From contig NZ_JAFBCJ010000001.1 in NCBI RefSeq assembly GCF_016907675.1, forward strand, positions 744,001 to 808,000: a stretch of DNA of 64,000 nucleotides. The letters are read 5' to 3'. The first letter of the stretch is position 1. Each line of letters starts with the position of its first letter. This document shows positions 4,141-63,550 of the stretch, in pieces. This stretch comes from Geodermatophilus bullaregiensis. Its GTDB lineage: Bacteria; Actinomycetota; Actinomycetes; Mycobacteriales; Geodermatophilaceae. The translations under genes were made by a program, and so were the position numbers. The notes beneath the pieces are model-generated. The model had not been told where the DNA came from. It made no database searches and was given only the letters and a program-made list of their open reading frames with translations.

Positions 4141-4170
4141 GGGCGGCGGCTCTCCGTTCTTCCTCAGCAA

Positions 4171-4312
4171 CCGCCTACCGAGTTAGCTGACGGGTTCGGG
4201 CTGGGAAGACGTGCCCTATCTCCGCACGCCGGAGGAGGTCCGGCGCGCACGAGAACTCACCCCAGTGCTGCGGTGGGTCCCCGGCTCACCTCGCGACCGC
4301 CCGAGGGCGGCG
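4171..4312 (-). promoter_or_regulatory. c-di-AMP (ydaO/yuaA-type) riboswitch
   Basis: Read on the minus strand, the leader of the NlpC/P60 gene contains blocks typical of actinobacterial ydaO elements in order: GAGCCGGGGACCCA, GGGGTGAG, TAGGGCACG, and the 3' block CCCGAACCCGTCAGCTAAC followed by TCGGTAGGCGG. The class binds c-di-AMP and usually turns off wall-hydrolase genes. The 5' boundary is approximate. No intrinsic terminator is seen between the aptamer and the start codon. Confidence 0.88.
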
Positions 4313-4383
4313 TCCGGTGACTCGGCGGTGTCCGGCCGAGGCCACCTCGTGTCGGGTGACGACCACCCGGCCGAACGGCGGCC

Positions 4384-37676: not shown

Positions 37677-40568
37677 TCACCCGACGACGAAGTTGACCAG
37701 CCGCCCAGGGACGGCGACGACGCGCCGCACCGTCTTGCCGGCCAGCTGCGCAGCCACCTTCTCCTCGGCCCGTGCCGCCTCCTCCAGCGCCGTGGCATCG
37801 GCATCGGCCGGCACGGTCACCTGCGCCCGCACCTTGCCGTTGACCTGCACGGCGACCTGCACGGTGTCCTCGACCAGCCAGCGCTCGTCGGCGACCGGGA
37901 ACGGCGCCCAGGCCAGCGAGTCGGCGTGCCCGAGCCGCGCCCACAGCTCCTCGCCCAGGTGCGGGGCCAGCGGAGCCACCATCAGCACCAGCGGCTCGGC
38001 CACCGACCGCGGCACGGGCCGCTCGGCGCCATAGGTCGCGGTCAGCGCGTTGGTCAGCTCGGTCACCCGGGCGATGGCGATGTTGAACCGCAGCGTCGTC
38101 ATGCCGTCGCGGACCCCGGCGATCGCCCGGTGCAGCGCCCGCAGCGTGTCCTCGTCCGGCGCGACGTCGTCGGACGCCCGCACCGCGCCGGTCTCCTCGT
38201 CGACGACGACCCGCCAGATCCGCTGCAGCAGCCGCTGCGAGCCGACGACGGCCTTGGTGTCCCACGGCCGCGACTGCTCCAGCGGACCGGTCGACATCTC
38301 GTAGACCCGGAAGGTGTCGGCCCCGTAGGCCCCGATCATCTCGTCGGGCGTGACCATGTTCTTCAGGCTCTTCCCGATCTTGCCGTACTCGCGGTTGACC
38401 GGCCTGCCCTCGTAGAGGAACCGCCCGTCCTCCTCGACCACGTCGGCGGCGGGGACGTAGAAACCGCGCGCGTCGGTGTAGGCGTAGGCCGAGATGTAGC
38501 CCTGGTTGACCAACCGGCGGAACGGCTCCTCGCTGGAGACGTAGCCCAGGTCGTGCAACACCTTGTGCCAGAAGCGGGCGTACAGCAGGTGCAGGACGGC
38601 GTGCTCCATGCCACCGACGTAGAGGTCCACGCCGCCGACGTCGCCCGGCGAGCGCGGGCCCAGCCAGTAGCGCTCCAGCTCCGGGTCGACCATCTGCGCG
38701 TCGTCGGCGGGGTCCAGGTAGCGCAGGTGGTACCAGCACGAGCCGGCCCAGTTGGGCATCGTGTTGGTCTCGCGGCGGTAGGGCCTGAGCCCGTCACCCA
38801 GGTCCAGCTCGACCGTCGTCCACTCGGCCACCCGCGACAGCGGCGGCTCCGGAGCGGACTCGGCGTCGTCGTCGGCGAAGGTCTTGGGCGAGTAGTCGTC
38901 GACCTCGGGCAGCAGCACCGGCAGCAGCGACTCGGGCACCGCGCGCGGCAGGCCGTCGGCGTCGTAGACGATGGGGAACGGCTCGCCCCAGTAGCGCTGC
39001 CGGCTGAACAGCCAGTCGCGCAGCTTGTACGTGGTCGTGGCCTCACCGGAGCCGTCGCGCACCAGCCAGTCGGTGATCGTGGCGATGGCGGTCGCCTTGT
39101 CCAGGCCGTCCAGCGACACCTCGTCGTTCGACGAGTTGATCATCTCGCCGGCGCCGGTCCAGGCGCCGCCGTCCCAGTCGGCCGGCGGCTGCACCGTCCG
39201 GACGACGGGCAGCCCGAACGCCGCGGCGAACTCCCAGTCGCGGGTGTCCTCGCCGGGCACCGCCATGATCGCCCCGGTGCCGTAGCCGGTCAGCACGTAG
39301 TCGGCGATGAACACCGGCAGCTGGCGGCCGTTGACCGGGTTGACGGCGGTGACGCCCAGCCAGACGCCGGTCTTCTCGCGACCGGCGTCCTGGCGGTCCA
39401 GCTCCGAGCGGCGGGAGGCCTGCCGCTGGTACTCCCGCACCGCCTCGCCCGGGGTGGCCGCGCCGCCGGTCCAGCGGGGGTCGGTGCCCGAGGGCCACGC
39501 GGCGGTGGTCAGCGTCTCGACCAGGGGGTGCTCGGGTGCCAGCACCACGTAGGTGGCGCCGAACAGCGTGTCGGGCCGGGTGGTGAAGACCTCGATGGTC
39601 TCGTTCCCGGCGGCGAACCGGATGCGCGCACCGGTGGAGCGGCCGATCCAGTTGCGCTGCATCTGCTTGACCGAGTCCGACCAGTCCAGCCGGTCCAGGT
39701 CGGCCAGCAGCCGCTCGGCGTAGGCGGTGATCCGCATCATCCACTGGGTCAGCGGGCGCCGGAACACCGGGAAGTTGCCCCGCTCGGAACGGCCGTCGGG
39801 GGTGACCTCCTCGTTGGACAGCACCGTGCCCAGGCCCGGGCACCAGTTCACCGGTGCCTCGTGCCGGTAGGCCAGCCGGTGAGCGTCGACGACCTTCCGC
39901 TTGTCGACGTCGGACAGCTCCGCCCATGGCACCCCCGAGGGGTTGGTGCCCGGTGCGGGCTCGCGGGTCCCGGCGTCCAGCTCGGCCACCAGCTCCTCGA
40001 CCGGGCGGGCCCGCCCGGCCGCCTCGTCGAACCAGGCCCCGAAGATCTTCAGGAAGATCCACTGGGTCCACCGGTAGTAGCCCGGGTCGATCGTCGCGAA
40101 GGTCCGGCGCTCGTCGTGGTCGACACCCAGCCGGCGCAGCTGCGCCCGGATGGCGGCGATGTTGGCCTCGGTGGTGACCCGCGGGTGCTGTCCCGTCTGG
40201 ACGGCGTACTGCTCGGCGGGCAGCCCGAAGGCGTCGTAGCCCATCGGGTGCAGCACGTTGTCGCCGTCCATCCGGCGGAACCGGCTGGTGACGTCGGTGC
40301 CCAGGTAGCCCAGCGGGTGGCCGACGTGCAGGCCCGCGCCCGAGGGGTACGGGAACATGTCCATGATGAAGGACTTGGGCCGGTCGGCGACCCGCTCGAA
40401 GCCCTCCGCCAGCCGGCCCGTCGGGTTGGGCGTGTGGAACGTCCCCTCCCGCGCCCACCGGTCCTGCCACTCCAGCTCGATCCGCTGGGCGAGCGCCGGC
40501 GTGTAACGGTGCGGCGGGACACCCTCGTCGGCCGGCTCGGTGGTGGGCCGGCTCACCGTCTGGCTCAT
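37677..40568 (-). CDS. leuS: Leucyl-tRNA synthetase
   Basis: 963 aa class Ia synthetase. The ATP motifs are [12 protein letters not shown] (HIGH) and KIGKSLKN (KMSKS). The CP1 editing domain has [15 protein letters not shown], and the tail ends with [24 protein letters not shown] lies 7 nt before the ATG. The 5' leader carries a peptide with three consecutive Leu codons and a U-rich terminator, so transcription is probably attenuated according to leucyl-tRNA charging. Confidence 0.95.
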
Positions 40569-40603
40569 GGTGGGGATCTCCTCGGCGGTCGTGCGGCGGG
40601 CAG

Positions 40604-40628
40604 AAAAAAACCCCTCACGCAGGAGGGG
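40604..40628 (-). terminator. Intrinsic terminator in the leuS leader (attenuator)
   Basis: On the minus strand CCCCTC, a 6-nt loop CTGCGT and GAGGGG are followed by seven T, one of the few U-tract terminators in the window, 36 nt before the leuS start. It stands upstream of the gene it would block. Confidence 0.85.
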
Positions 40629-40691
40629 TCGCCGTGCTGGTCTGCGTCGGTCAGATCAGCACGGCCGGCGAAGGAGCAGCTGCCCGATCAC
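40629..40691 (-). promoter_or_regulatory. leuS leader RNA: ribosome-sensing hairpin
   Basis: After the Leu codons the minus-strand RNA forms GCCGUGCUG with CAGCACGGC around a 17-nt loop; the 5' arm overlaps the leader-peptide stop. The loop contains ACGCAG, exactly complementary to the CUGCGU loop of the terminator, allowing an alternative helix or loop-loop contact. Confidence 0.75.
40656..40691 (-). CDS. Leucine-rich leader peptide of leuS
   Basis: Eleven codons read M-I-G-Q-L-L-L-R-R-P-C from a GTG, then TGA. The three Leu codons CTG, CTC, CTT are consecutive. It ends within the first arm of the leader hairpin, 28 nt before the terminator stem. A ribosome held at the Leu codons would keep that hairpin open. 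The function is inferred from this arrangement. Confidence 0.8.
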   Translation of the reverse strand: MIGQLLLRRPC

Positions 40692-40829
40692 GCGCGCGAG
40701 CCTACTCCGCGGCTCCTGCCGGGCGCGCGCGGACACCGGGGCGAGCCGGCACCCCCCGCCTCCCCCCAGCGGGTGAGCCCGCCGCCGGAGCCGCTCCACC
40801 CGGGTGCCCGGGCCGCCGAGAAGGGTCGT

Positions 40830-43112
40830 GTGCGATCGATCGAGTCCCGCGGGGGCAACCGGCTGGCGTCCCGGTGGGCCCTGGTCCTGACGGGGGTGAC
40901 CCTCGCACTGTTCACCACCGGGGTGGGGTCCCGCCCGGACGGCGCGGCGTGGGCGTCGGCCTACGACCTCGTCCTCTACAACGCCGTCTACGTGGGCGGC
41001 GCGGTGGTGTGCGTCCTCGCCGCGGTCCGGCACGCCGCCGAGCGCCTCGCCTGGGCGAGCCTGGCCCTCGCCCTGCTGCTGAGCGTGGGCGGCAACCTCG
41101 CCTGGACCCTCGTCCTCGCCCCGATGGGCGAGCCGCCCTACCCCTCGGTCGCGGACGCCTTCTGGATCGCCTACTTCCTGCCGCTCTACGTCGCGCTCAT
41201 CGGCCTGATCCGCACCCGGGTGGGGCGCTTCCACACGAGCATGTGGCTCGACGGGGGCATCGGCGCCCTCGGCGCCACCGCCGTGGCCGTCGCCCTGCTG
41301 CTCGAGCCCGCCCTGCGCCTGACCGAGGGCGACCTCGCCACGGTCGTGACCAACCTGGCCTACCCGCTCGCCGACGTCGTCCTGCTCGCGCTGCTCGTGG
41401 CGGTGTCGGCCATCCTCGGTGTCCGCCGCGACCACACGCTGCTGCTGGTCGGCGGCGGCATCCTGGTCAACCTGGCCGGCGACATCGTCTACCTCGACCT
41501 GGCCACCACGGGCGTCTACGTCGAGGGCGGTCCCCTCGACCTCACCTGGCTGGGCGCCGTCGTGATGATGGCCGTGGCGGCGCACCGCAGCGACCGCGGG
41601 ACGCCGCCGGCACGGGACACCGACACCCAGGTCGGCTGGCGCGTGCTGGCCGTCCCCATGGTCTGCAACCTCGCCAGCCTCGCCGTCCTGGGCATCGGCT
41701 GGGGCGACCAGATGTCGCCCTGGGCGGCCTGGTGCGCGATCGGCTGCGTCCTGGCCGGTGTCGGGCGGACCACCGTCACCTTCCGCGAGGTGCGGGCCCT
41801 CAACGAGGTCCGGCTGGAGGCGCGCACCGACGAGCTGACCGGCCTGCCCAACCGCCGGGCCCTGCTCGAGGCCGCCCGCGCCGTCGTCGCCGAGGCCACC
41901 ACGGCCCGCCCGGCCGCCCTGCTGCTGCTCGACCTCGACGGCTTCAAGGAGGTCAACGACAGCCTCGGTCACGGCGCCGGCGACGAGCTGCTCTGCCAGG
42001 TGGGCCCGCGGCTGGCCCCGGCGCTGCGTCCCGGCGACCTGCTCGCCCGCCTGGGCGGGGACGAGTTCGCCGTCCTGCTGCCCGCGACCGACCTGGTGAC
42101 CGCGGCGGACCGGGCCGGCGTCGTCGACGAGCTGCTGCGCCAGCCCTTCCCCGTCGAGGGCATCCGGCTGCACGTGGGCGTCAGCATCGGCGTCTCGACC
42201 GCGCCCGTCCCCGCCGACGACGTCCAGGAGCTGCTGCGCTGCGCCGACGTGGCGATGTACGCGGCCAAGACCGACCGCAGCGGCGTGCAGGTGTACGTGC
42301 CCGACCCGGGCAGCGGCTCCTCAGAGCGGCTGCGGACGATGGAGGAGCTGCGCACCGCCCTGGTCGAGGGCGAGCTCGACGTCCACCTGCAGCCGCAGGT
42401 CTCGATGGACGACGGGCGGGTCGTCGGCTGCGAGGCGCTGCTGCGCTGGAACCACCCCACCCGCGGGCTGCTCAGCCCCGCCGTCGTGCTGCCCGCCGCC
42501 GAGCAGGCCGGGCTGCTGCGCCCGCTGACCGACGTCGTCCTCGATCGCTCCCTCGACGCGGTCGCGCGGTGGTGGGACACGCACCGGGTGCCGGTCTCGG
42601 TCAACCTGGCCGCGGCCAACGTCGCCGACCTCGACCTGCCGGCCAAGGTGGCCGCGAAGCTCGCCCAGCGGGGCCTGCCGCCGGAGGCCCTGACCCTGGA
42701 GCTGGTCGAGGACACCCTCATGTCCGACCCCGAGCGCGGCCGCACCGTGCTCGGCCAGCTGCGCCGGCTCGGCGTGCGGACGTCGATCGACGACTACGGC
42801 ACCGGCTACAGCTCGCTGGCCTACCTGCGGCACCTGCCGGCCGACGAGCTCAAGCTCGACCGCAGCCTCACCGCCGACGTCGCCCGCGACGAGCGGGCCG
42901 CGGCGATCGTGCGGCACACCGCGGCCCTCGCCCACGACCTGGGCCTGAGCCTGGTCGCCGAGGGCGTGGAGGACCTGGCCACCGGCCGCCGGCTGGCCGA
43001 CCTCGGCTGCGACGTCGCCCAGGGGTACGGCATCGCCCGGCCCATGCCGCTCGCGGCCTTCCTGGGCTGGCTGGCCGGTGAGCGCACCGAGCGGCTCCGC
43101 ACCCCGGTGTGA
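40830..43112 (+). CDS. Membrane-bound diguanylate cyclase/phosphodiesterase (GGDEF-EAL)
   Basis: 760 aa. Eight or nine transmembrane helices (about residues 12-320) form an unassigned sensor. The GGDEF domain (about 330-490) has RLGGDEFAVLLP intact and RPGD five residues upstream as a product-inhibition site. The EAL domain (about 505-755) keeps CEALLRW, NLAAAN, LELVEDTL, DDYGTGYSSLAYL, LKLDRSL and EGVED, the main metal-binding and catalytic residues. It could both make and degrade c-di-GMP. GAGAAGG lies 5 nt before the GTG. It is divergent from leuS and precedes the repeat-protein gene by 123 nt. Confidence 0.9.
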   Translation: MRSIESRGGNRLASRWALVLTGVTLALFTTGVGSRPDGAAWASAYDLVLYNAVYVGGAVVCVLAAVRHAAERLAWASLALALLLSVGGNLAWTLVLAPMGEPPYPSVADAFWIAYFLPLYVALIGLIRTRVGRFHTSMWLDGGIGALGATAVAVALLLEPALRLTEGDLATVVTNLAYPLADVVLLALLVAVSAILGVRRDHTLLLVGGGILVNLAGDIVYLDLATTGVYVEGGPLDLTWLGAVVMMAVAAHRSDRGTPPARDTDTQVGWRVLAVPMVCNLASLAVLGIGWGDQMSPWAAWCAIGCVLAGVGRTTVTFREVRALNEVRLEARTDELTGLPNRRALLEAARAVVAEATTARPAALLLLDLDGFKEVNDSLGHGAGDELLCQVGPRLAPALRPGDLLARLGGDEFAVLLPATDLVTAADRAGVVDELLRQPFPVEGIRLHVGVSIGVSTAPVPADDVQELLRCADVAMYAAKTDRSGVQVYVPDPGSGSSERLRTMEELRTALVEGELDVHLQPQVSMDDGRVVGCEALLRWNHPTRGLLSPAVVLPAAEQAGLLRPLTDVVLDRSLDAVARWWDTHRVPVSVNLAAANVADLDLPAKVAAKLAQRGLPPEALTLELVEDTLMSDPERGRTVLGQLRRLGVRTSIDDYGTGYSSLAYLRHLPADELKLDRSLTADVARDERAAAIVRHTAALAHDLGLSLVAEGVEDLATGRRLADLGCDVAQGYGIARPMPLAAFLGWLAGERTERLRTPV

Positions 43113-62129: not shown

Positions 62130-62326
62130 CTCAGCTAAACACGAGCGTGGCACCGGCCCGCCAAACCCTGCCCACCGGCTGCCTCCCACCGATCCCCAGG
62201 GCAGGGGTGGGGGACCCAGGTCCACGGCGCGGCAGGGCTCTGACGCCTGCGCGCCTCGGGGTGAAGCCGCGTTCCGCGGCCGGGCACCGATCGCCCGAAC
62301 CCGACAGCTCACCTCGCCGGCGGTGA
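62130..62326 (+). promoter_or_regulatory. c-di-AMP (ydaO/yuaA-type) riboswitch
   Basis: The leader contains GTGGGGGACCCA, GGGGTGAAG, CCGGGCACC and the 3' block GCCCGAACCCGACAGCTCAC with CTCGCCGG, all hallmarks of the class. The Rpf-family start codon follows after about a dozen bases with GGAGA as ribosome site. The 5' limit is approximate. Confidence 0.88.

Positions 62327-63550
<1,224 letters not shown>

Follow-up and report, generated by a model that had tools for sequence, protein, structure and literature searches.

Attenuators in front of leuS, the gene of leucyl-tRNA synthetase, have been predicted for Streptomyces coelicolor and S. avermitilis (Seliverstov et al. 2005, PMC1262725). 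In S. lividans a leader peptide, LeuL2 (MRAVRLLLSEPR), annotated in 2021, lies before leuS; the passages of PMC8079986 that concern it describe it as leaderless by RNA-seq, with a hairpin and a U stretch. The main text of a survey of 50 genomes (PMC11109978) does not mention leuS. The putative leuS attenuator that we describe here is of the kind already published for Streptomyces, and the new point is that its two hairpins abut without sharing a base. We found no description of abutment without overlap in titles, abstract openings and selected passages of the accessible literature on leuS leaders, leucine pseudoknots, hairpins upstream of terminators, and adjacent or stacked hairpins.

The leuS leader of Geodermatophilus bullaregiensis

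The window that we analysed is a stretch of 64,000 nucleotides from G. bullaregiensis (contig NZ_JAFBCJ010000001.1, positions 744,001 to 808,000). Its leuS gene (37677..40568, minus strand) encodes 963 amino acids and is identified by NCBIfam TIGR00396 (884.8 bits; cut-off 548.4); the product carries the LeuRS editing domain (Pfam) and was also matched to PDB entry 1h3n. On the other side of the leader region lies a divergent GGDEF-EAL gene (40830..43112, plus strand). The leader itself is read on the minus strand, and all coordinates that follow refer to it. A -10-like TAGGCT (40699..40704) stands 7 nt 5' of a GTG at which the mRNA probably starts leaderless; a scan found no sigma-70 consensus promoter. 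The GTG opens an ORF of 11 sense codons and TGA (40656..40691; GTG ATC GGG CAG CTG CTC CTT CGC CGG CCG TGC TGA) encoding MIGQLLLRRPC*, in which codons 5-7, CTG CTC CTT, form a run of Leu control codons (40671..40679). The TGA sits in the 5' arm of a hairpin, P1 (40631..40665), in which GCCGTGCTG and CAGCACGGC form 9 bp around 17 nt with further inner pairs, as supported by covariation and folding. With a gap of 0, P1 is followed by the terminator hairpin T (40609..40630), recognized from sequence, covariation and a terminator scan, whose arms GACCCCTC and GAGGGGTT form 8 bp around the loop CTGCGT. A U7 tract (40604..40610), two of whose U are also paired in T, completes the predicted terminator, and a Shine-Dalgarno-like GAGGAG (40578..40583) stands 5' of the leuS ATG. 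The scan returned two overlapping terminator-like calls on T versus a mean of 0.1 in shuffles.

An 11-codon ORF with CTG CTC CTT, the hairpin and a terminator with seven U ahead of leuS had been named in a preliminary description of this DNA, together with a complementarity between the loops ACGCAG and CUGCGU, and all of these can be read directly in the window. The minimum free energy fold of the leader holds both P1 and T, at a z-score of -1.92 and with 8 of 200 shuffles equally good; as this is unremarkable, the significance of the structure rests on its conservation. Neither in the window nor in 13 loci did the leader match any Rfam family, T-box included, at the gathering score, the best weak match being Chlorobi-1 on the plus strand (15.9 bits, gathering 50). 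The 64-kb window holds no tRNA genes. It does hold two c-di-AMP riboswitches (RF00379), at 4157-4337 on the minus strand (61.9 bits) and at 62177-62337 on the plus strand (47.2 bits).

Distribution of the leader

Leader DNA was matched in 41 of 61 genomes, that of G. bullaregiensis included, among them all 37 of its own family; in other families there are four matches, all of them short. The element is present at 75 of 80 named LeuS loci (E <= 1e-4). Carriers include Blastococcus, Geodermatophilus, Modestobacter and Klenkia, which also have the closest LeuS proteins, and Streptomyces, Longispora, Saccharothrix and Ornithinimicrobium. The five loci lacking it are L089, L090, L104 (Aeromicrobium), L100 (Promicromonospora) and L048, the last a locus that does not include the gene start.

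We built a covariance model from 39 of the LeuS-locus leaders, all of them with abutting hairpins. At E <= 0.01 it matches 194 of 394 sampled Actinomycetes genomes, some of the matches preceding other genes, and at E <= 1e-4 it matches 27 genomes of a phylum-wide sample of 396, four of these lying in one family outside the class. We also took 40 genomes from a range of families and retrieved 30 LeuS loci from them, of which 12 carry the element (E <= 0.01). This single model covers Geodermatophilaceae and Streptomyces loci alike, which places the window leader with the leuS attenuators of Seliverstov et al. In one family of the window's order (f8), at least 20 genomes are without the leader and two have weak matches; a full-length leuS is present in both f8 genomes that we checked.

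In all, 189 distinct elements were collected, including the 39 model seeds and many from Streptomyces. Setting aside six with another downstream gene (L141, L165, L167, L168, L169, L177) leaves the set of 183 leuS leaders; LeuS follows in 182 of them, as judged by signature motif, tblastn or identity with the query, and in the remaining one (L192) the contig ends. Distance counts leave out L149 and L186, which the model alignment shifts.

A conserved leader peptide with a rare Leu codon

The run of Leu codons is conserved in relatives. In 179 of the 183 leuS leaders a TANNNT box is followed, at 6-7 nt, by an ATG or GTG in frame, a spacing that fits the expectation for leaderless mRNA. The third control codon is CTT in 165 of the 183, and in 46 of 55 in a phylogenetically spread subset. 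CTT is rare in the G. bullaregiensis genome: it makes up 61 of 7,959 Leu codons (0.77%; 78,142 codons in total), a share somewhat lowered by taking usage from 147 ORFs picked for GC-rich third positions.

From the first Leu codon to P1 there are 14 nt in 161 of 181 leaders, and the stop is a TGA four codons after the third Leu codon in 160 of 183. In the 14 leaders with a TAG one codon after the third Leu codon, the distance from the first Leu codon to P1 is 14 nt in nine, 13 in four and 15 in one; the peptide thus ends at varying points, but its Leu codons mostly hold their distance to P1. The distance from the stop to T is at least 16 nt, with a median of 31 (186 elements; L141, L149 and L186 left out).

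Covariation in both hairpins

In an alignment of 62 rows, 96.5% of cells pair and 14 of the 18 pairs show double changes. There are 109 double-change cells, against 25.4 in shuffles (none of 500 reached the observed count) and at most 11 in slid controls; the rows include six leaders of other genes and one 32-nt fragment, and the alignment was fitted to the covariance model, which favours pairing support. The 39-row seed alignment gives 27 double-change cells against 8.9 when shuffled, but only 2 of its 18 pairs have double changes, which is the level of shuffles (mean 1.9). Both P1 and T covary; the preliminary description had proposed this as a check on its reading, along with conservation of the Leu codons, and both are supported by the counts given here.

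Coupling analysis of 55 leuS rows, from which a 32-nt extra match (L156, 621-652) was dropped, as it was from the element set, returned pairs of P1 or T as the top three coupled column pairs, of which the strongest is the second base pair of T as counted from its foot. Eight of the top 30 lie in P1 or T, and the rest are mostly neighbouring or non-complementary columns. A long-range complementary pair at rank 18 (columns 31-192) is isolated, without neighbours. No third helix or alternative antiterminator stands out in the coupling analysis or in partition functions. We note that the loop of T (CTGCGTG, CTGTGCG) is conserved, in the window (40604-40630) and its homologues, beyond the apparent needs of a terminator, as is a thymine two positions 3' of the U tract, present in 38 of 39 seeds (alignment column 124).

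A leader with Leu codons, P1 and a terminator that are all conserved, the hairpins covarying, most likely serves ribosome-mediated attenuation of the synthetase gene, and we regard it as highly probable that the leuS leader is a leucine-sensing transcription attenuator worked by the ribosome. The preliminary description had gone further in calling it a full ribosome-mediated attenuator: the conserved and covarying leader, hairpin and terminator stand, but no antiterminator that shares bases with the terminator is seen in the leaders.

The ribosome is predicted to switch P1, not T

For folding calculations we assumed that the front of the ribosome lies 13 nt from the start of the A-site codon. 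With the ribosome at the first, second or third Leu codon or at the stop, the computed mean probability of P1 is 0.99, 0.77, 0.32 and 0.00 (189 elements; 187 for the stop), and that of T is 0.98, 0.98, 0.97 and 0.94, with no more than 2% of elements giving T a value under 0.5, in a folding model that has neither coaxial stacking nor kinetics. In 182 of 183 leaders P1 is computed as the stronger hairpin of the two.

The two hairpins are in nearly constant contact. The gap between them is 0 in 153 of the 183 leuS leaders, 1 in 14, 2 in 15 and 5 in one, that is 0-1 nt in 167, a count partly selected for because the elements were gathered with a model made from abutting seeds. In the spread subset (n = 55) it is 0 in 44, 1 in 10 and 2 in one. 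Gaps were counted on elements trimmed near the U tract, as bases past the terminator otherwise join the fold; the trimmed counts supersede an untrimmed one, with gap 0 in 149 of 185. An exploratory parse of P1 and T by regular expression missed 16 of 189 elements. P1 and T have no nucleotide in common, and neither tends to grow into the other: a one-pair extension of P1 into T is possible in 9 of 183 leaders, where 17.3 would be expected, and the reverse, an extension of T into P1, in 6 of 153.

Set beside a trp-type attenuator, the leader has the ORF with a codon run, for which translation is predicted, and an intrinsic terminator between ORF and gene, seen in sequence and covariation and predicted to terminate; by computation, a ribosome at the stop blocks the upstream hairpin and a ribosome at the control codons frees it. 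An antiterminator sharing bases with the terminator appears neither in the computed folds nor in the couplings. Since the probability of P1 swings with the ribosome while that of T barely moves, and the two share no bases, the ribosome would act on P1 rather than on T, and we see no sign of classical strand exchange.

A proposed mechanism and its alternatives

We infer the following course of events. RNA polymerase would start at or beside the GTG, and a ribosome would translate the leader at once. If charged tRNA-Leu is scarce, above all, presumably, the isoacceptor for the rare CTT, the ribosome would stall at the Leu codons with its leading edge about flush with P1, and P1 would fold. With ample leucine it would move on to the stop, which usually lies in P1 itself, in the 5' arm, and so keep P1 from folding. 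By pairing rules T should be foldable in both ribosome states. A folded P1, with no spacer to T, would keep the foot of T open in the polymerase exit channel, allowing readthrough into leuS; with P1 unfolded, the 5' flank of T would be single-stranded and T would terminate. For a leucine shortage to raise leuS expression, P1 has to work against T, and as it shares no base with T while being in near-constant contact with its foot, abutment would be the likeliest means of doing so. We favour this explanation as a whole by a modest degree; the last step by itself, a steric block of T by the abutting P1, we put forward tentatively, at a little under an even chance.

Precedents point both ways. In E. 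coli, a ribosome close to the terminator tR2 represses termination according to the relevant passages of PMC4824070, a precedent for a bulky upstream object. In the ilvB1 attenuator of Mycobacterium tuberculosis, the change of LVVI to AAAA is described as giving low, inducer-independent expression (PMC13236596), a precedent for codon control in an actinobacterium. Among the points against the explanation are the lack of a sigma-70 consensus promoter and two results in S. coelicolor that are told in PMC1262725: altered control codons of ilvB were without effect, and those of leuA gave an effect inconsistent with classical attenuation.

The strongest alternative, which we consider unlikely but by no means negligible, is a classical attenuator in which, in the stalled state, P1 or its loop bases transiently pair with an arm of T and so prevent T from forming. 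The authors of PMC1262725 labelled an antiterminator hairpin in the Streptomyces leuS leaders, and for Corynebacterium ilvB a three-base overlap of the hairpins is reported (PMC11857589, in the part on that attenuator), so that shared bases could be usual in other systems. In the leuS leaders, however, the near-constant probability of T in every modelled ribosome state, the lack of a third coupled helix and the scarcity of outward extensions of P1 and T all argue against a base-sharing antiterminator.

Less likely again, and in our view improbable, is that P1 is mainly a pause hairpin, or a second hairpin that aids termination, and that the proximity of the ribosome rather than P1 sets termination. 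The same passages of PMC4824070 have a ribosome near the terminator repress it and termination complete beyond about 27 nt from the stop, to be set beside the stop-to-T distances given above, and clusters of adjacent hairpins have been reported to induce intrinsic termination (PMC8355165, in its relevant part), which would give P1 the sign opposite to our proposal. Yet the ribosome would be nearest to T under ample leucine, so that proximity would turn leuS on when it is unneeded, and a pause hairpin leaves the abutment of P1 and T at 0-1 nt unexplained.

Translational control, in which the Leu run would pair with the Shine-Dalgarno region of leuS as proposed for the LEU element of leuA, is very improbable: in the window CTCCTT could form 6 pairs with GAGGAG, but across the 164 of 183 leaders with a start region found the longest helix averages 5.22, against 5.31 for shuffled codon runs. 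The loop-loop pseudoknot of the preliminary description can be set aside almost entirely, since ACGCAG/CUGCGU-type 6-nt complementarity, present in the window element and L005, occurs at chance (2 of 183 leuS leaders versus a mean of 1.43 for shuffled loops) and, with G-U allowed, runs of at least six are rarer than in shuffles (3 versus 16.8).

Abutting hairpins before cimA, ilvB and leuA, and two LeuS lineages

The covariance model also matched leaders of citramalate synthase (cimA; L141), ilvB (L177) and leuA (L249). The first lies in the G. bullaregiensis genome itself (contig C1, 1482384-1482472, minus strand): a leader MSSTAPVIVIT, with the codons Val-Ile-Val-Ile and a hairpin abutting the terminator, precedes a gene identified as citramalate synthase by TIGR00977 at 551.9 bits. 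In the leuA leader MKHLLLIESARH, at about 1501-1600 of the minus strand of its locus, the layout is likewise one of abutting hairpins, in contrast to the LEU-element pseudoknot reported for leuA.

To avoid selection by the covariance model, we picked further loci through their proteins: for cimA 30 of the 32 listed matches (L257-L286), for ilvB 30 of the 39 listed (L287-L316). A scan found an upstream terminator in 21 cimA and 18 ilvB loci from many families. A hairpin of at least 8 bp with a gap of at most 1 nt precedes the terminator in 15 of the 21 and 12 of the 18, compared with one of the 16 generic terminators that serve as a small control, drawn from 464 kb of the G. bullaregiensis genome, and 6-7% of shuffles. 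Under a looser definition, a 6-bp hairpin at 0-1 nt, the counts are 17 of 21 and 13 of 18, compared with 4 of the 16 generic sites and about 16-18% of shuffles. An earlier generic control with other thresholds, now superseded, had found an 8-bp hairpin at gap 0 at 2 of 24 sites, namely the leuS leader itself and L228. We found no description of a cimA attenuator in the accessible literature on cimA leaders, judged mainly by titles and the openings of abstracts.

Behind the leuS leader stand two forms of LeuS: of the 173 elements in which the motif was located, 141 have PYPSGxGLH and 32 have PYPSGxLH. Identity at the N terminus is 62% or more within forms and does not exceed 53% between them, and mean identity of the leader core is 69% between forms and 81% and 65% within them (161 elements with at least 120 LeuS residues in each case). 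One genome (G266; assembly 93% complete, 2% contamination) has both forms, each with its own leader (L174, L175). Further loci, L145, L150 and L182 among others, were noted for the same combination of one leader and two deeply separate LeuS lineages. The leader may have been duplicated, or it may have stayed in place while the gene behind it was replaced.

Taking these loci together, we suggest with some reserve, as somewhat less probable than the steric step, that leuS, cimA and ilvB of Actinobacteria, and one leuA, share an abutting-hairpin attenuator that blocks by position without base sharing, and that before leuS the leader has also stayed across two deeply separate gene lineages. If P1 blocks T by abutment, an attenuator needs only a gated hairpin beside its terminator, not mutually exclusive structures, and searches that require a base-sharing antiterminator would miss such leaders. 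An abutment rule, if true, would offer a simple test of how intrinsic terminator hairpins close in RNA polymerase; by the same rule, cimA would be expected to have attenuators.

Comparison with known systems

The attenuators of Seliverstov et al. are among the known systems closest to the window leader: they have a leader ORF with Leu codons, a hairpin and a terminator before the same gene in the same phylum. They were predicted in two species and called classical, with an antiterminator, whereas the 183 leaders assembled here span wider taxa and show no base sharing between the hairpins. LeuL2 of S. lividans, which the passages on it in PMC8079986 present as an annotation from RNA-seq, is likewise a leaderless peptide before leuS with a hairpin and a U stretch.

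The LEU element of actinobacterial leuA (PMC1262725) has in common with the leuS leader a Leu codon run and the phylum. It is characterized by a pseudoknot and by pairing of the codons with the Shine-Dalgarno box, neither of which is supported for leuS, and we rejected an assignment of the leuS leader to this element, the pseudoknot being at chance and Shine-Dalgarno pairing showing no excess. As described in the pertinent part of PMC13236596, M. tuberculosis ilvB1 resembles the proposed leuS mechanism in that a stalled ribosome frees a hairpin which a ribosome at the stop masks, and codon dependence has been shown for it; it differs in that its codons are Leu-Val-Val-Ile and that mutually exclusive structures are described. 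The ilvBNC attenuator of Corynebacterium and the ilvB-II motif have, in the passages of PMC11857589 and PMC10272879 that treat them, a leader peptide and adjacent antiterminator and terminator bases, as here. They are reported to have a GCC trinucleotide overlap, or pairing of the P1 loop with the terminator foot, whereas the leuS leaders show no overlap and look like the zero-overlap limit of the Corynebacterium ilvB arrangement.
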